DNA from: Mucinivorans hirudinis
GTDB lineage: Bacteria; Bacteroidota; Bacteroidia; Bacteroidales; Rikenellaceae
Assembly: GCA_000723505.1 (NCBI GenBank)
Contig: HG934468.1
Span: 124,001 to 188,000, forward strand
Length of the DNA: 64,000 nucleotides
Direction of reading: 5' to 3'
The position numbers and the translations under genes were made by a program. The first letter of the stretch is position 1. Each line of letters opens with the position of its first letter. Under the pieces are notes generated by a model. It was not told where the DNA came from. It did no database searches and saw nothing but the letters and a program-made list of their open reading frames with translations. Positions 17,192 to 30,238 of the stretch are shown here, piece after piece.

Positions 17192-18194
17192 ATGTTTCAG
17201 GAGATATTACGTTTTGAGAATCCGCGAATGTTGTGGCTACTGTTGGTGATAGTGCCGATGGTTGGTTACTATATTTTTCGCACCTTTCAGGGACGGGCGG
17301 CGGTGCAAATATCCTCAATAGAGGGGGTTGCATCGGCACGACGCACTGCTAAATATTGGCTGCGCCATATACCATTCATACTCAGGTGTTCTATGGTGGC
17401 ATTGATGATTGTGGTCATTGCACGTCCGCAAACATCAGAACACTATAACAATACCAATGCCGAGGGTATAGATATTGTTATGGCACTGGATATAAGCGGT
17501 TCGATGCTTGCGCGCGACTTCCAGCCCGACCGTATGGAGGCTGCCAAGAAGATAACCTCACAATTCATAATCGAACGTCCTACTGACCGTAGTAGGATTG
17601 GTAGTATTTGCAGGTGAGGCATTTACGCAGTCGCCACTGACCACCGACCACGTTAGTCTGGTGAACCTATTGAGCCAAATTAAGAGTGGTATGATAGATG
17701 ATGGTACGGCGATTGGCAATGGTTTGGCGACAGCTGTAAACCGCCTCAAGGAGAGCAAAGCACCGAGTAAAGTGATAATTTTGCTTACCGACGGGGTGAA
17801 CAACACGGGGCAAATTGACCCAAAAACTGCCGCTGACATTGCTGCCGAATATGGGCTGAGGGTTTACACGATAGGTGTTGGTTCAGAGGGAGTTGCCCCC
17901 TATCCAGCGTATGACCCTTGGGGTAAGGTTGTTTACCAGATGGGTAAGGTGGAGATTGATGAAAAGCTGCTAGAAGAGATTTCCGAAAAGACCGGCGGAC
18001 GCTATTTTAGAGCTACGGATAATACCAAGTTGGCAGAAATTTATACGGAAATTAATAAGTTGGAAAAAGCAAAGATTGAGGTCGAGAATTTTACTAAATA
18101 TACGGAGCTGTACCATTTATATCTGCTAATGGCATTAGTGTTGTTTGTACTAGAAATTCTTTGCCGTTACGTTATTTTCAGGACTATACCATAA
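17192..18194 (+). pseudogene. batA: batA, frameshifted
   Basis: Two overlapping frames together spell a normal BatA of about 333 residues. The first (17192-17617) has two N-terminal membrane helices and the VWA metal site ALDISGSM, then reads TDRSRIGSICR and stops. The second resumes as LVVFAGEAFTQSPLTTDH and carries LTDGVNNTG, RVYTIGVG and a C-terminal helix. The total of 1003 nt is one more than a multiple of three. Removing one base near 17591 (CGT-A-GTAGGA) restores DRVGLVVFAGEA. The break lies inside the VWA domain, so the product would be inactive unless this is a sequencing error or a recoding site. An IS element lies 73 bases downstream. Confidence 0.85.
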
Positions 18195-18267: not shown

Positions 18268-19722
18268 CATTACTGACCGACAAAAAAGTTGAGAAAAAAA
18301 GAGAGGGGTAATCCCCTTTGAAGAGAATTACCCCGATAGTTGTAATTTTGTAAGTGCAAACAATACAAGATTCAACTATGGGCAAAGATAGTTATAAAAA
18401 TTTAGTCGGTCAGCCGATTTTCAAACAGGTTGTAGATTTTCTGCCAAGAGCGAAGTTTGACCTGTTAGTTCACCGCCACAAATCGGATAGGTACTACAAA
18501 CGATTTCGCTCGTGGGAGCAGTTGATAACTTTGCTCTTTGGGGTCTTTAGCAGGTGTGATTCTGTGGGCGAGATTGCAGCAGCAATGCAGGGCTTGCAAG
18601 GCAAGTTGAGCTATTTGGGGCTAGATAAATCGCCCGCCAAAAGCACCATAGGCGATGCTTTGCGAGATAGAGATGAGGTTTTGTTCAGGGATTACTACTT
18701 TGAGTTATTGAGCCACTACTCGCCACTTTTGTCGGTCAGCCGAATTAAGGGGGTGGATTTTGAGAAGTTTTACATCTTCGATTCTACCACTATTCGCCTA
18801 TTTTCGGACATAATGAAGGGGGTAGGTCGTAACCCCAAAGGAGATGGTAAGAAGAAGGGTGGATTGAAGGTGCATATGATGATAGACGCTCACGCCGATT
18901 GTGCCAAGCACGTCAATATAAGCGAGGCAAAAATGCACGATAAGAAATTTCTGAGCAAGCTCAACCTCACAGCAGGGAGTATGATTTGTTTCGACAAGGC
19001 GTACAACGACTATGGGCAATATGCCCGCTGGACAGAAGAGGGAGTTTGGTTTGTCGGACGGTTGAAACGCAATGCTGTTTACGAGGTACAGGAGGTTATT
19101 TCAGAGAAAGTGCTGAACGACAAAGAGTTTGGAGTAATATCAGAGGAGCACATTCATCTGAATTACAAGGATAATAAGGAGCAGAAGAAGGTTTGTTTAA
19201 GGAAAGTTGTTTATCGTGATGAAAAGGGTCGGATATTGGTTTTTATCACCAATAACTTTCAAATCAGTGCAGAGGATGTGGCTTTTATCTACAAGTGCCG
19301 CTGGCAAATAGAGCTGTTGTTTAAGAAGTTGAAGCAGAATTTTCAACTACACTTTTTCTACTCTGAGACCGAGAATGGAATTAAGACGCAGATATGGATA
19401 ACGCTCATTGCTCATCTACTTTTGACGGTGTTGAAAGTCAAAACGCAGACTGACAAAGCATTTTCGACTGTTGCGGTGTTGGTGAGGATACATTTGACGA
19501 GTTATCTGGATATTTTTTGGATGATTCAGAACTGCAAACGCACTTATCACAAGCGAAAAGGGGCTAATTTTTGCTCATCGAGCCGAGCCCCAACGATACA
19601 AATGGCACTATTTTGAGGGGGCGTAGGTATTTTGAAATGACTATTTATGCGGAAATACATGCTGATTACTAAACGATTGCAGAAATAATTAACAAAAATC
19701 CGATTTTAGTCGGTTAATAATG
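18268..19722 (+). mobile_element. IS4-family insertion sequence, copy 1
   Basis: 1455 bp. The ends are imperfect inverted repeats: CATTACTGACCGAC at the left, and on the opposite strand CATTATTAACCGAC at the right. It is flanked by the 10-bp direct duplication AAAAGAAAAA (18258-18267 and 19723-19732), the footprint of transposition into the batA-batB gap. An internal hairpin (GGGGTAAT/ATTACCCC, 18305-18335) precedes the transposase gene, a common guard against outside transcription. It is nearly identical to copy 2, so the insertion is recent. Confidence 0.93.
18378..19616 (+). CDS. IS4-family transposase (DDE), copy 1
   Basis: 412 residues from ATG 18378 (MGKDSYKN); a GTG eight codons upstream is the alternative. 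The N-terminal helical domain (about 1-90, SWEQLITLLFGVFSRCDSV) is of the DUF4372 type. Catalytic text: FDSTTI (first Asp), MICFDKAYNDY (second Asp), and CRWQIELLFKKLKQNF, the YREK-like motif with the Glu. The gene is intact. It differs from copy 2 at one residue (Val/Ile in FKQVVDF) and a few silent bases. Confidence 0.93.
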   Translation: MGKDSYKNLVGQPIFKQVVDFLPRAKFDLLVHRHKSDRYYKRFRSWEQLITLLFGVFSRCDSVGEIAAAMQGLQGKLSYLGLDKSPAKSTIGDALRDRDEVLFRDYYFELLSHYSPLLSVSRIKGVDFEKFYIFDSTTIRLFSDIMKGVGRNPKGDGKKKGGLKVHMMIDAHADCAKHVNISEAKMHDKKFLSKLNLTAGSMICFDKAYNDYGQYARWTEEGVWFVGRLKRNAVYEVQEVISEKVLNDKEFGVISEEHIHLNYKDNKEQKKVCLRKVVYRDEKGRILVFITNNFQISAEDVAFIYKCRWQIELLFKKLKQNFQLHFFYSETENGIKTQIWITLIAHLLLTVLKVKTQTDKAFSTVAVLVRIHLTSYLDIFWMIQNCKRTYHKRKGANFCSSSRAPTIQMALF

Positions 19723-19739: not shown

Positions 19740-20753
19740 ATGTTTCGTTTCGCAGAACCATACTACCTATATGCACTACTATTAATCCCAACATTGATAG
19801 TACTTTTTGTCGTATACCGCCGTGCTCAAAAGAGACGGCTCGCAAAATTTGGCGACCTTGCCATTATTGCTCAACTTATGCCCGAGGCTTCGCCCAAGCG
19901 GGTACGCAATAAGTTTATTTTACTGCTTATAGTCGTTGGCTTGATGGTTGTTGCATTGGCTCAACCTCAGTTTGGCGCGAAGCTAAGAGAGGTCAAACGC
20001 AAAGGCATCGAAATTATGCTGGCTGTGGACGTTAGTAAGTCGATGTTGGCAGAGGATTTTAAGCCTAATCGTCTGGAGCGCACCAAGTATGCCGCGAGCC
20101 GCCTAGTAGAGCAGCTTGAGGATGACCGCGTGGGGATGATTGTCTTTGCTGGCGATGCTTTTATACAATTGCCCATCACCTCGGACTACGTTTCGGCACG
20201 TGGTTTTATTAACTCGGTATCCACCGATATTGTACCCGTGCAAGGCACATCGATTGCAAAGGCAATAGAGTTGGCAACCCGTTCATATTCAGAAAATAGT
20301 AACAAAAGTCGTGCTCTTGTTATCATCAGTGATGGCGAGAGCCACGACGACGACCCCGTGGCTGCCGCACAGCAGGCTAAGGAGAGCGGAATCATCATCT
20401 ACACTGTTGGTATAGGTACGCCCGAGGGTGCGCCTATTTCCATCAACGGCGAGATGATGAAAGACGAGGAGGGGAATATGGTAGTCTCGAAGCTGGACGA
20501 ACAGACCCTGCAACAACTTGCCGTGCTCACGGGTGGTACTTATGTGAGAGCAACCAACCAGAGCGTCGGACTTGACGAAATATTGAAACGAATTAAGGCT
20601 ATGGAAAAGCAGGAGTTCAATGCACTTGCTTTTGCCGAGTATAACGACCAGTTCCACTATTTGGTGGCACTCGCACTGCTCATATTGCTTATCGAATTTA
20701 TAATGTTAGACCGCAAAAACCGTATACTCAGCAAAATATCTATCTTCAAATAA
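19740..20753 (+). CDS. batB: BatB, membrane VWA protein
   Basis: 337 residues. Two N-terminal helices (about 10-25 and 60-78), a VWA domain with metal site LAVDVSKSM and partner motifs IVFAGDAFIQLPITSD and VIISDGESHDDDP, and a C-terminal helix (FHYLVALALLILLIEFIML). It is intact, unlike batA. Its stop overlaps the batD start (TAATG). With the IS just upstream, batB, batD and batE may be cut off from the operon promoter or driven from the IS. BatA and BatB are paralogs thought to form a complex at the inner membrane with MoxR. Confidence 0.92.
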   Translation: MFRFAEPYYLYALLLIPTLIVLFVVYRRAQKRRLAKFGDLAIIAQLMPEASPKRVRNKFILLLIVVGLMVVALAQPQFGAKLREVKRKGIEIMLAVDVSKSMLAEDFKPNRLERTKYAASRLVEQLEDDRVGMIVFAGDAFIQLPITSDYVSARGFINSVSTDIVPVQGTSIAKAIELATRSYSENSNKSRALVIISDGESHDDDPVAAAQQAKESGIIIYTVGIGTPEGAPISINGEMMKDEEGNMVVSKLDEQTLQQLAVLTGGTYVRATNQSVGLDEILKRIKAMEKQEFNALAFAEYNDQFHYLVALALLILLIEFIMLDRKNRILSKISIFK

Positions 20754-23410: not shown

Positions 23411-24001
23411 ATGTCCAAACTTCTAGAAAACGTCGTAGGCGAATTTGCCAAGCTGCCGGGTGTCGGACGACGCTCGGCGTTACGGTTGGCTCTCAATCTA
23501 TTGCGGCGCGAGGTGGAGGATGCGGACGCACTAGCAGGTGCGATATATCAGTTCCGCCGCGATGTAAAGAGTTGTATATATTGCAACAATATTTCGGATA
23601 CAGAGATTTGTCCCATATGTCAGGATACGCGGCGTGACAAGAAGATGATTTGCGTTGTGGAGCAGGTTGCCGATTTGATAACTATCGAGAATACAAGGCA
23701 ATATGGCGGTCTTTATCACGTGCTTGGCGGAGTAATCTCTCCGATGCAGGGAGTTTCGCCCTCGGACTTGAAAATAGACTTACTCATAGACAACATCACC
23801 AAAAACGAGGTCGAAGAGGTTATTCTAGCCATCCCCTCCACTATTGAGGGCGAAACCACATCTTATTATATAACCCGTCGAATCAAGCAGTTAGGTGTAA
23901 AAATAAGTGCCATATCACGTGGCATCGGCTTCGGCACTGAGATAGAGTACGCGGACGAAATGACAATAACCCACGCACTCCGCAATCGGGTAAGTTATTA
24001 G
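23411..24001 (+). CDS. recR: Recombination mediator RecR
   Basis: 196 residues. Helix-hairpin-helix LPGVGRRSALRLAL, four-Cys zinc finger CIYCNNISDTEICPICQD and Toprim domain (MICVVEQVADLITIE, YHVLGGVISPMQGVSP). RecR forms a ring that, with RecF or RecO, loads RecA at gaps. The C-terminus (THALRNRVSY) looks complete. Its stop is the exact point where the broken exporter gene on the other strand ends, so this is a recombination junction. Confidence 0.95.
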   Translation: MSKLLENVVGEFAKLPGVGRRSALRLALNLLRREVEDADALAGAIYQFRRDVKSCIYCNNISDTEICPICQDTRRDKKMICVVEQVADLITIENTRQYGGLYHVLGGVISPMQGVSPSDLKIDLLIDNITKNEVEEVILAIPSTIEGETTSYYITRRIKQLGVKISAISRGIGFGTEIEYADEMTITHALRNRVSY

Positions 24002-24548
24002 CCCAACTTCAACGCCGAGAAGTTTTTTCGGTATTTTTCGCTCAAAAACGGGGGTGATTTCATTCTATTGAGTTGATTTTCAGAAGTATCATTAGGGAAT
24101 ACTCCGTTGGAGTAGGTTCTAATATTAAAATTATACCCTTACGTTCTATTTCTTTATTTCGTACCTCTTTATAACTTTGAAGCCATGATTTTTTAAACTC
24201 AGCTTCATCGTATTCTAATAAGCCTGCTGCTGGATCGGAAACATAAACTACGTTGTTTTTAATTTCATAAATTACCACAAAGTGTTGTTGGTTCCAATGT
24301 GCAATACAAGGTAGCTGTACTTCATCACGCAATTGTCTCCATGTTACTTTAGCCCCTGTTGTGCGGAAACCAATCAATTCAGCAGCATCACTTATCCCTA
24401 ATAATGATACGCCTTCTCGAGTAATATGACATTTTTTACGAAGATTTTGCAGTGAATAGTGGCGACCAGAATATTGTGCTATGTTTCGTAAACAAGTTGG
24501 TACACAATCCATCGCATCTAATTGAGTGTAACTAGGAAATGCCTTCAA
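24001..24548 (-). pseudogene. C39-peptidase ABC exporter, frameshifted and truncated
   Basis: The 5' part (MKAFPSYTQLDAMDC...) is a full C39 peptidase domain with Gln9, Cys15, His89 (QQHFVV) and Asp105 (YVSDPAAG), the domain that cuts leader peptides at a double-Gly site in PCAT-type bacteriocin exporters. After LEPTP the frame runs out at 24060. Shifting frame near 24095 gives NDTSENQLNRMKSPPFLSEKY-RKNFSALKLG, the expected lead-in to the first membrane helix, which ends at the recR stop. The membrane and ATPase domains are gone. It lies three bases after the S41 fragment, so the two were one operon. Confidence 0.75.
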
Positions 24549-24551
24549 TGT

Positions 24552-25136
24552 CTACTTATTTTTAATGATTGTCAATAACTTTTCTAACACTGCATCTTTA
24601 CCGGTCATATACTCGCTTGCAACATAAGGTATATGAATATCTGGGTATAACACTCCATCTATTGCTTTTGTGTATTCGTTGTATTCGGTGGTTGATACAG
24701 CATCAAAAAAGATAGTCGATGAACCAAGCTGTGATCCTGGGATTATTTCGCCATATTTGAGTGCGCTATGTAGCAATGGTTCTCCAACGAGAGTTGCTGC
24801 ATTATTGTAATGCATAATATTGCAAAATGAGGCTGCTACGGACCCTGTATCTTTGCTTTGTAGCACATAATATTTCATACTAGTTATGAAGTGTTTTGGA
24901 TTTAGCTCTACCTCAGAGATTACACATTCCTTTGGAATGTCAACTACTTGACCAATCATATCTTGGTTTAGAAAATCATAATCTCCAATAGTTTCCGGCG
25001 ACACTCTCAGCCTTTGACCTTTCAAGTATTTGATTGACGGTTTATCAATAAATATTGATAACATCTCATCAAATCTATCTCCGTAACCACCAGGATTTCG
25101 TCTGAGGTCTAATATGACAGAAGTAATATTGTTTTT
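24552..25136 (-). pseudogene. S41-type secreted protease, 3' fragment
   Basis: About 193 residues, starting at ITSVILDLRRNPGGYGDRF, the S41 (C-terminal processing peptidase/tail-specific protease) core, and including DTGSVAASFCNIMHY, where the nucleophile Ser is expected, and YPDIHIPY near the end. The matching 5' half is on the far side of the IS. The duplicated target ATTGTTTTT (25128-25136) encodes the shared KNN residues, so the insertion point is exact. Joined, the protein would be about 470 residues with a signal peptide. S41 proteins of this size accompany some Bacteroidota peptide-natural-product exporters. Confidence 0.85.
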
Positions 25137-26590
25137 CATTACTGACCGACAAAAAAGTTGAGAAAAAAAGAGAGGGGTAATCCCCTTTGAAGAGAATTAC
25201 CCCGATAGTTGTAATTTTGTAAGTGCAAACAATACAAGATTCAACTATGGGCAAAGATAGTTATAAAAATTTAGTCGGTCAGCCGATTTTCAAACAGATT
25301 GTAGATTTTCTGCCAAGAGCGAAGTTTGACCTGTTAGTTCACCGTCACAAATCGGATAGGTACTACAAACGATTTCGCTCGTGGGAGCAGTTGATAACTT
25401 TGCTCTTTGGGGTCTTTAGCAGGTGTGATTCTGTGGGCGAGATTGCAGCAGCAATGCAGGGCTTGCAAGGCAAGTTGAGCTATTTGGGGCTAGATAAATC
25501 GCCCGCCAAAAGCACCATAGGCGATGCTTTGCGAGATAGAGATGAGGTTTTGTTCAGGGATTACTACTTTGAGTTATTGAGCCACTACTCGCCACTTTTG
25601 TCGGTCAGCCGAATTAAGGGGGTGGATTTTGAGAAGTTTTACATCTTCGATTCTACCACTATTCGCCTATTTTCGGACATAATGAAGGGGGTAGGTCGTA
25701 ACCCCAAAGGAGATGGTAAGAAGAAGGGTGGATTGAAGGTGCATATGATGATAGACGCTCACGCCGATTGTGCCAAGCACGTCAATATAAGCGAGGCAAA
25801 AATGCACGATAAGAAATTTCTGAGCAAGCTCAACCTCACAGCAGGGAGTATGATTTGTTTCGACAAGGCGTACAACGACTATGGGCAATATGCCCGCTGG
25901 ACAGAAGAGGGAGTTTGGTTTGTCGGACGGTTGAAACGCAATGCTGTTTACGAGGTACAGGAGGTTATTTCAGAGAAAGTGCTGAACGACAAAGAGTTTG
26001 GAGTAATATCAGAGGAGCACATTCATCTGAATTATAAGGATAATAAGGAGCAGAAGAAGGTTTGTTTAAGGAAAGTTGTTTATCGTGATGAAAAGGGTCG
26101 GATATTGGTTTTTATCACCAATAACTTTCAAATCAGTGCAGAGGATGTGGCTTTTATCTACAAGTGCCGCTGGCAAATAGAGCTGTTGTTTAAGAAGTTG
26201 AAGCAGAATTTTCAACTACACTTTTTCTACTCTGAGACCGAGAATGGAATTAAGACGCAGATATGGATAACGCTCATTGCTCATCTACTTTTGACGGTGT
26301 TGAAAGTCAAAACGCAGACTGACAAAGCATTTTCGACTGTTGCGGTGTTGGTGAGGATACATTTGACGAGTTATCTGGATATTTTTTGGATGATTCAGAA
26401 CTGCAAACGCACTTATCACAAGCGAAAAGGGGCTAATTTTTGCTCATCGAGCCGAGCCCCAACGATACAAATGGCACTATTTTGAGGGGGGTAGGTATTT
26501 TGAAATGACTATTTATGCGGAAATACATGCTGATTACTAAACGATTGCAGAAATAATTAACAAAAATCCGATTTTAGTCGGTTAATAATG
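25137..26590 (+). mobile_element. IS4-family insertion sequence, copy 2
   Basis: 1454 bp, one base shorter than copy 1 (a G-run difference after the transposase stop) and otherwise about 99.7% identical by eye. The inverted ends are the same. The target duplication is ATTGTTTTT (25128-25136 and 26591-26599); if the outer C is counted as target it becomes 10 bp. It interrupts the S41 protease gene. Confidence 0.93.
25247..26485 (+). CDS. IS4-family transposase (DDE), copy 2
   Basis: 412 residues from ATG 25247. Intact DDE enzyme as in copy 1, with Ile instead of Val in FKQIVDF. Transcription runs opposite to the interrupted host gene. Confidence 0.93.
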   Translation: MGKDSYKNLVGQPIFKQIVDFLPRAKFDLLVHRHKSDRYYKRFRSWEQLITLLFGVFSRCDSVGEIAAAMQGLQGKLSYLGLDKSPAKSTIGDALRDRDEVLFRDYYFELLSHYSPLLSVSRIKGVDFEKFYIFDSTTIRLFSDIMKGVGRNPKGDGKKKGGLKVHMMIDAHADCAKHVNISEAKMHDKKFLSKLNLTAGSMICFDKAYNDYGQYARWTEEGVWFVGRLKRNAVYEVQEVISEKVLNDKEFGVISEEHIHLNYKDNKEQKKVCLRKVVYRDEKGRILVFITNNFQISAEDVAFIYKCRWQIELLFKKLKQNFQLHFFYSETENGIKTQIWITLIAHLLLTVLKVKTQTDKAFSTVAVLVRIHLTSYLDIFWMIQNCKRTYHKRKGANFCSSSRAPTIQMALF

Positions 26591-27424
26591 ATTGTTTTTC
26601 TTAAATTCGTTAATAGTTGTTTTTATATGCTTAATCAAATAACTATTGTTAGGATAAAACTGCTCAATCTCCAAATAACCAACTTTCTCCTGTTCATAAA
26701 GCTTAGTTTTAAACTGATCGTTAATAACCATCTGCTTAAAAGTCTGATTTCCGTTATAAGTGGTTGCATCAACGGTGTGCTGTTCACCATTTCGTAAGAG
26801 AGTGATTGTATATTTATTTGTCAGATGCCGTGCATTATAATTTTTCAATAGTGTCATTGGCACTTGATACCTATCGTGATATGAATAATGAAGGAGCTGA
26901 GAAGCATCAGCATCATTTATTCTAACAATCATATCTCCCACCTCTATATGAGGATCAATGCTTCGATTAACTACCAAAGTGTCATTTATTAACATAAACC
27001 TTACACCCAACCTCTTTATTTGTGAGATAAATGATTTTAATGACTTTGTGTCCCGAACATCCTCAAAGGCATAGTTGCTGTCAACTCTTAAATGTGGGTC
27101 AATCCATTGCATCCAATCCAGATACGGCTTTAATACATATAGTAATTCATGAGTCATTAGTGAGTCCTTACCTATGCTTTCGCATCTCATCACGACAAGA
27201 TTTCTTACACTATCTAAAGCCTTAGGGTTGTTAAGCTCCATAGCAGGATGCTTTGCTATTGGTTGTACCAATGTGCTTACCTCATTCGTTGGAGTCATTC
27301 GTTGATACATAATACCAAGTCTGGTAGTTGTCGGTATATCTCTATCTTTTAGTGCTTGCATAGACGATTGTCCTTGAGCAGAAAAAGAGATCACACACAA
27401 TATAATGATAAACAGTTTTTTCAT
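26591..27424 (-). pseudogene. S41-type secreted protease, 5' fragment
   Basis: About 277 native residues: signal peptide MKKLFIIILCVISFSAQGQ, a helical N-terminal region, a PDZ-like stretch (IDPHIEVGDMIVRINDADA) and KVGYLEIEQFYPNNSYLIKHI leading into the S41 core. After EFKKNN the frame enters the IS and stops within three codons. The upstream sequence carries CTCCTCCCC (27436-27444), a strong GGGGAGGAG ribosome site on the coding strand, which is unusual in this phylum. Without its other half the protein cannot be active. Confidence 0.85.
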
Positions 27425-27667
27425 AATGATCTATACTCCTCCCCATTGTTAAGACCAAATTTTGAGTTAGTTAAGTCAAGGGATTTTTGTTAATTTATTT
27501 GCAGTGTGCCCATGGTTTCGGGTAGTTTTATGTAATGGAGAGCCTTTTTTGAGCTCTCAACATTGGAGGGTTTTGCTACGCGCTTGTGGCTTGGTCTCAT
27601 TAAAACTGAACATCAGATCAGAATATTGCCTCTTTGGGGACTCTACGACAAGTAACAAAATGGGCTG
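27425..27667. other. Gap between mutS and the S41 gene, possible mobile-element debris
   Basis: 243 bases. It has a hairpin (GAGAGC 27538-27543 with GCTCTC 27553-27558) and a small closed frame around it on the minus strand (ESSKKALHYIKLPETMGTLQIN), bounded by stops, which looks like the end of a lost gene. I could not assign it to a family. Confidence 0.3.
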
Positions 27668-30238
27668 CTACCCCAAAATCTTTTTAATCTCGTCCAGCTT
27701 ATTAAGTGCCTCAATCGGCGTGAGATTATTGACATCTAACCCCTTAATCTGCTTTTTGATACTCATAATAGTAGGATCTTCCAGCTGAATAAAACTCAGT
27801 TGGATAGGCTTTTCTGTGGCTATCGCAACATCAACCTTGCCGGTGCGCTGTTTTTCCAATTCCGCCAATACGCGTTTCGCCCTATCCACCACCGAGTTAG
27901 GCATTCCTGCCATCTTTGCCACGTGGATACCGAAGGAGTGCTCCGTGCCGCCGCGCACCAATTTCCTCAAAAATATCACCCGCTTTTCAACCTCACGAAC
28001 AGAAACATTGTAGTTGCGAATGCGCTCAAACTGATTTTCCATTTCGTTAAGTTCGTGGTAGTGGGTCGCAAACATCGTGCGCGCTGCGGGCTTCGAGTGG
28101 AGATACTCCACCATTGCCCACGCAATCGAAATGCCATCGTAAGTGCTTGTACCTCTGCCTATTTCATCCAAAAGCACAAGCGAGCTACCCGAAATATTAT
28201 TGAGAATATTTGCCGACTCCAACATCTCCACCATAAAGGTAGATTCGCCCTGCGAAATGTTGTCCGAAGCACCAACTCTAGTAAAAATCCGGTCTACAAC
28301 CCCGATGTTCGCCTCTCGAGCAGGCACATAGCAACCTATCTGCGCCATCAATACAATCAGAGCCGTCTGACGCAACAACGCCGACTTACCCGCCATATTG
28401 GGACCTGTAATAATTATAATCTGCTGATTCTGACTATCTAAATAGACATCATTCGGAATATATGGTTCGCCTATGGGCAGCCGCGTTTCGATAACCGGAT
28501 GGCGACCATCCTTAATATCAATCACATCCGTGTCACTCATCACGGGGCGACAGTAGCGATTCTCCTTGGCAACGCGCGCAAAACTGCAAAGAGTATCAAT
28601 CTCGGCAATAGCATTTGCAGTCTGTTTAGCCTGAGCCACAGAGCCTTGTAACCATACCACAAGCTCCGCAAAAATTCGTGCTTCAATCTCCGTAATGCGC
28701 CCCTCTGCCCCGAGAATCTTCTCTTCATAATCTTTAAGCTCCTGAGTGATATAACGTTCGGCATTAACAAGTGTCTGCTTGCGAATCCACTCCGTAGGAA
28801 CTTTATCTTTGTGCGCATTACGAACCTCAATATAGTATCCAAAAACAGAATTATAGCTAATTTTAAGGGATGTGATGCCTGTGCGCTCTATTTCTCGCTG
28901 CTGAATTTCCAACAAGAAATCCTTGCCGTGCGAACTTATGCGGCGCAATTCATCAAGCTCTTTATCAACCTCATAGGCAATTATCGAACCCTTGCCCGGC
29001 TGCAGGGCGGGCTCGGGGAGAACAACCTTGCCGATGCGCTCCACCACTTCGCCCAAATCTGCAATACGTTTTGCCGTCTCAATCTCAGAGCATAATGATT
29101 TGATATTGGCGGAATTAGTAAGCGATTTTGCAAGTTGCACCACCTCGCGCGGATTTACACGCCCAGCCGCCACCTTACCAATAATACGCTCTAAATCACC
29201 AACTTCAGTCAGATTATCTATCAACGCATTTTGTAGTTCGATATTATTGAGTAGTTTCGAGACCACATCGTGTCGCTCGCCAATTTTCTGTGCATCACGA
29301 AGCGGCAACGAAATCCAGCGACGCAGCATCCGCGCACCCATAGGGCACGCAGTTCTGTCCAAAACATCGGTCAGCGAAACTCCTCCCTCGGAAAGCGGAT
29401 AAAAAAGCTCGAGGTTGCGAATGGAATATCTGTCCACCCAGACGTATTTATCGCTATCCAAGCGCGAGATTGAATTTATGTGCCCAAGCTCCGTATGTAC
29501 CGTGTATTCAAGATAATAGAGAACCGCTCCGGCCGCCGTGACAGCCAAAACCATCGACTCAACCCCAAAACCTTTTAATGACTGAACATCAAGCTGTTTT
29601 ACCAATTTCTCGCGCGCCGAAGTCTCGTTGAAAGCCCAATCATCCAAACGATATGTAAAATACCTATCTCCAAAAAGCTCCTTATACTGTTCATTATCAG
29701 AGCGTTTATAGACTATCTCTTTTGGCGAGAAGTTTGAAATCAACTTTTCGATATAGTCCAACTTACCTTCCGAGGCATAAAACTCACCTGTGGACACGTC
29801 CAAAATAGCGACCCCTGCCCTACCCCCCTTGCCAAAAGAAATTGCCGCAAGATAGCTGTTCTCCTTATATTGAAGCACATTATCGTGATACGACACACCG
29901 GGCGTAACCAACTCAACCACACCCCGTTTCACTATCCCCTTAGCCTTCTTTGGGTCTTCCAACTGCTCGCAAATAGCCACTCGATAACCCGCCGTTACCA
30001 ACTTGGGCATATAATTATCCACCGCGTGGTGGGGAAAACCGGCAAGCGGAACGGTTGCTGCACTACCGTTTGCCCGCTTGGTGAGGGTGATACCCAAAAC
30101 GCGACTTGCAATCTCGGCATCATCTCCAAAGGTCTCATAAAAGTCCCCCGCTCGAAACAGCAACAAAGCATCCGGATATTGAGCTTTGATTGAGTAATAC
30201 TGTTTCATCAGCGGAGTTTCGGCATATTTTTTTTCCAT
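27668..30238 (-). CDS. mutS: DNA mismatch repair protein MutS
   Basis: 856 residues. The N-terminal mismatch-binding domain has [31 protein letters not shown] (cited by its key FYETF, Phe and Glu contacting the mismatch). The ATPase domain has Walker A GPNMAGKS near residues 612-619, Walker [17 protein letters not shown] and [10 protein letters not shown]. Full length for MutS1; it recognises mispairs and recruits MutL. No mutL here. Confidence 0.97.

Follow-up and report, generated by a model that had tools for sequence, protein, structure and literature searches.

Background

Peptidase-containing ABC transporters (PCATs) combine maturation and export of peptides: it is established for the family that the C39 head cuts at Gly-Gly and that the PCAT exports (PMC10352776, PMC10885120). 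In PCAT/AMS proteins such as PCAT1 and LahT, the C39 domain is joined to a permease and an ATPase. PCATs of Bacteroidales are associated with GG-motif precursors, and radical-SAM RiPP clusters, including the TIGR04148/TIGR04150 systems, occur in this order (PMC10352776). Mucinivorans hirudinis M3T, a member of the Rikenellaceae from the leech gut, has a genome in which repetitive and transposable elements are numerous (PMC4319616).

We analyzed a stretch of 64,000 nucleotides of this genome (contig positions 124001-188000), hereafter the window, in which the interval between two housekeeping genes, recR and mutS, holds pieces of an S41 peptidase gene and of a PCAT gene. The window C39 domain is homologous to the solved PCAT peptidase domains, but compared with PCAT1- and LahT-type proteins the window copy is truncated, lacks permease and ATPase, and has Val in place of the Gly that follows the catalytic Cys. 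TIGR04148 and TIGR04150 proteins are found at other M. hirudinis PCAT loci, and a relative from Marinifilum likewise has a GG precursor, a radical SAM/SPASM protein, an S41 peptidase, and a PCAT. The window locus and its paralogue differ from the radical-SAM RiPP clusters in having the S41 gene directly before the PCAT and in retaining no radical SAM gene. As for the S41 (C-terminal processing) peptidases, they share the PF03572 domain with the window gene, which differs in being split by an IS and in its putative role in peptide maturation. We consider it likely, with a probability of about 0.88, that the window locus once matured and exported a peptide by means of an S41 protease and a PCAT, and that it now survives as a remnant without function.

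An S41 peptidase gene and a PCAT head lie between recR and mutS

The features of the interval, in window coordinates, are as follows.

23411-24001, plus strand: recR, complete (TIGR00615, E=9.6e-68), its TAG stop adjoining the next feature
24002-24086: truncated outer end of an IS1634-family element (CCCAACTTCAACG...), 85 bp, terminus defined from L022, L024, and L049
24087-24548, minus strand: C39 peptidase domain, PCAT head (PF03412, E=3.7e-32; profile match 24060-24548)
24147-24680, minus strand: 534-bp tract covering the S41 tail and C39, 99% identical to ~8903-9436 of L021
24552-25136, minus strand: C-terminal part of S41 (PF03572, E=4.6e-12; domain match to 25139)
25128-25136: left target duplication, 9 bp, ATTGTTTTT, read from the sequence
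25137-26590, plus strand: IS4-family element (transposase 25223-26485, NF033592, E=3.7e-64), with copies in L021 and L024
26591-26599: right target duplication, 9 bp, ATTGTTTTT, read from the sequence
26591-27424, minus strand: N-terminal part of S41 (ORF 26582-27424), with a secretion-signal-like N-terminus
27431-27581: truncated IS3-family terminus holding GGGGAGGAG, 6 bp upstream of S41
27668-30238, minus strand: complete right-hand flanking gene, an 856-aa open reading frame, which we take to be mutS from recognition of its sequence rather than from a family search

In the loci of 29 relatives, no mutS gene turned up within ~1.5 kb of recR; thus, the recR-mutS junction is not a conserved neighborhood in that sample.

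The S41 gene runs from 27424 to 24552, toward recR, and is cut by the IS4-family element. The reading frame is identical on either side of the element, and 9-bp duplications of the same kind border other copies of it (three compared). This bears out the preliminary description, which had proposed a protease gene cut by an IS. The C-terminal part carries the PF03572 domain and can be aligned with the full-length S41 proteins of L021 and L046. The N-terminal part had no Pfam match of its own; full-length S41 relatives align with it over their N-terminal half, identity being 28% to the S41 protein of L021 and 32% to that of the same-genus genome G003. Ser- and Lys-containing motifs, which may include the catalytic residues, are conserved in the alignment. 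A second copy of the window IS4-family element was noticed at 18268-19722, upstream of recR, between the ORFs 17598-18194 and 19740-20753.

Three bases separate the S41 stop from the TTG start codon of the C39 frame, and Cys15, His89, and Asp105 are all present, as had been described. To this we add that residue 16 is Val (DCVPTC), where Gly was found in 25 of the 25 other C39 motifs compared; hence the DCG motif of PCATs is altered. Recognizable transporter sequence is cut off after LEPTPTEYSLMI and stops at 24087, at the IS end, so that no permease or ATPase belongs to the same protein and the remaining C39 product is of 162 aa. Behind the domain lies an LEPTP motif, which the full-length PCATs of L017 and L059 share. 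The window C39 is the head of a PCAT whose permease and ATPase are gone. As for truncation, a short C39 protein standing alone in an intact relative was not encountered, and in an 80-genome Bacteroidales sample frames of ~710-790 residues held most of the C39 matches, some frames being shorter or partial, which agrees with the truncation proposed earlier.

IS ends bound the remnant on both sides

The 85 bp that follow recR correspond to the end of an IS1634-family element (transposase NF033559, E=1.7e-69), of which the genome has ~34 other matches, with 88-93% identity, finishing at or near the same base. Its outer terminus lies directly after the recR TAG and its inner side is joined to C39 sequence. 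Since the C39 frame simply reads into this IS sequence, the frameshift that had been invoked before the abrupt end at the recR stop is not required, the tail being the IS end itself. A frameshift may still exist in the last few codons before the junction.

On the other side, the IS3-family terminus (transposase NF033516, E=2.1e-66) recurs at three other places in the genome with 100% identity over 150-152 bp. The GGGGAGGAG sequence, initially read as a ribosome site, is part of this terminus (...GGGGAGGAGTATA) and is found identically in the other genomic copies; that reading was therefore abandoned. For the stretch 27582-27667, ahead of mutS, the genome contained no further match.

GC content is 35-36% in the S41 and C39 pieces vs 46.3% in the window, and their tetranucleotide use is an outlier, only ~0.3-1.6% of equal-sized windows being more deviant. 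Such k-mer comparison sustains the low GC and foreign-looking base use noted at the outset. Acquisition of these genes from elsewhere is plausible, their composition fitting it without proving it.

A paralogous locus shares a nearly identical tract

A paralogous locus (L021/L048) lies at 2.66 Mb, wherein an S41 gene of 474 aa is followed by a nearly identical C39 head, then by IS-interrupted ABC-transporter pieces and a HlyD gene. Both loci have damage in the 3' part of the transporter gene. The two S41 proteins share ~28% identity in the N-terminal part and 53% over the first 150 residues of the C-terminal part. The 534-bp tract shows four differences from the paralogue, one of which makes Val of the Gly after the catalytic Cys. 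Upstream of the tract, S41 identity to the paralogue is only ~60%. This difference, 99% over 534 bp against ~60%, suggests recombination between the two loci, by gene conversion or another event, as the simplest reading of the sequences.

PF03412 matches occur at 11 places in the genome. In five loci (L017, L018, L019, L020, and L024), the PCAT gene is followed by HlyD and LanC-like genes with 86-99% DNA identity, and the genes upstream of these modules differ in several cases. Matches to TIGR04148 or TIGR04150 were obtained in both loci tested, L018 and L019. A tentative idea, which we hold to be possible but rather less than probable, is that, in this IS-rich symbiont, peptide loci that differ in their upstream genes swap export heads (a PCAT, in many cases accompanied by HlyD and a LanC-like gene) through recombination; the 534-bp tract would be one such event, and the five closely similar PCAT modules, which follow partly different genes, would represent others. 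The window tract may be part of the same tendency.

Besides, a tyrosine-recombinase-like ORF and a relaxase (PF03432 in L021) were noticed beside peptide-export loci, at 1787-6187 of L021 and 270-908 of L017, which suggests that these loci may be carried on mobilizable elements. Small ORFs with double-glycine leaders (e.g. MNISNYSVAELTETEIMNVSGG...), candidate precursors, were also seen at 10281-10673 of L049 and 11719-11925 of L023, where a PCAT fragment or a radical SAM gene lies close by.

An apparently intact locus exists in Marinifilum

S41 relatives are rare: at E<=1e-20, they were found in 3 of 393 Bacteroidales genomes, M. hirudinis being one of the three. Among those inspected, the relatives in G003, G388, G221, Labilibaculum, and Ancylomarina stand alone, with no C39 nearby. 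Scanning genome contigs with the S41 of the paralogue yielded four relatives, and a PCAT was present only in Marinifilum. Querying the phylum sample with the Marinifilum S41 gave matches from the M. hirudinis genome only, a search of the family of G221 for S41 relatives returned G221 itself only, and a search of plasmids and viral contigs gave no match. Furthermore, none of the 29 PCAT loci examined had an S41 relative within 1.5 kb. This indicates that the S41 and C39 pairing is uncommon; the statement that such pairs are a general trait of Bacteroidota was too broad, the rare relatives inspected standing alone except in Marinifilum.

The search for an intact locus in relatives led to Marinifilum caeruleilacunae (L059), the sole intact S41 and PCAT locus found. 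This compact, apparently intact locus encodes a 55-aa precursor, whose leader reads ...LSTKELQESKGG, together with an S41 peptidase, a radical SAM/SPASM enzyme, a 735-aa PCAT, and two further products, a 226-aa protein and that of a small ORF. Its radical SAM protein falls short of the TIGR04148 family, and S41 is separated from PCAT by the radical SAM gene and further ORFs, whereas S41 abuts PCAT in M. hirudinis.

A pattern scan of the window and L021 revealed no plausible GG-leader precursor near the S41 genes, the Marinifilum locus having one. Nor does the window retain a maturation enzyme or an HlyD-type fusion protein, which are represented by radical SAM in L059 and HlyD at the paralogue. 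Because the precursor, the radical SAM gene, and the transporter body are missing from the window, we infer its membership in an export locus from the paralogue and the relative. On these grounds, the IS-broken paralogue and the apparently intact Marinifilum locus support the proposal that the window holds the remains of a double-glycine peptide export locus.

Could the pieces be something other than a remnant?

The preliminary description had noted that the C39 domain is in one frame and could act alone. If so, the fragment would be a working leader peptidase for double-glycine precursors exported by other PCATs of the genome. The open frame and the triad are indeed there, and some residual activity is possible for that reason; in vitro, leaders are taken off with isolated C39 domains, LahT150 among them (PMC10885120), and the genome has other C39/PCAT places that might be served. 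However, the Gly16 to Val change, where 25 other motifs are invariant, together with the lack of a precursor nearby, makes independent activity unlikely. Besides, S41 carries one IS within it and has another immediately before its start, the tail of the C39 product is fused and IS-derived, and the other PCATs inspected have a C39 of their own. We thus retain the open frame and triad, and regard autonomous function as very improbable.

Another view would be that S41 is an ordinary stand-alone protease, beside which the C39 head was placed by recombination, the two having never formed one functional unit. The sharp identity boundary inside S41 would fit with this, as would the stand-alone S41 relatives of G003, G388, G221, Labilibaculum, and Ancylomarina and the 29 sampled PCAT loci devoid of an S41 neighbor. 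Yet the S41-C39 adjacency recurs at a second locus, the 2.66-Mb paralogue, and an S41 relative lies inside the apparently intact GG-peptide locus of Marinifilum. We therefore give this view little credit, and favor the decayed S41-protease and PCAT locus.

Probable function of the ancestor and decay of the window locus

In its intact form, the locus most likely operated as the Marinifilum one does. Its product would be a small precursor bearing a double-glycine leader, to be modified by the radical SAM/SPASM enzyme wherever that maturase is present. Removal of the leader after Gly-Gly would fall to the C39 domain at the N-terminus of the PCAT, and the PCAT would export the core through the HlyD-type fusion protein. 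Outside the inner membrane, the secreted S41 would presumably trim or turn over the exported peptide. In the window, the IS4 element split S41, the IS3 element would have replaced the region just upstream of it, and an IS1634-related deletion would have taken away the transporter body; the order of these events, like the peptide substrate, is a proposal. With its protease gene interrupted, the body of the transporter lost, Val in place of the Gly behind the catalytic Cys, and no precursor detected in the vicinity, the copy in the window very probably yields nothing useful.

The junctions described here document a peptide-export locus of a gut symbiont that decayed through IS activity, the fossil of a known type of system. 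One intact relative ties a rare type of S41 peptidase to a radical SAM/GG-peptide/PCAT cluster. Last, the shared tract and the similar PCAT modules raise the testable idea that RiPP loci exchange their export modules.
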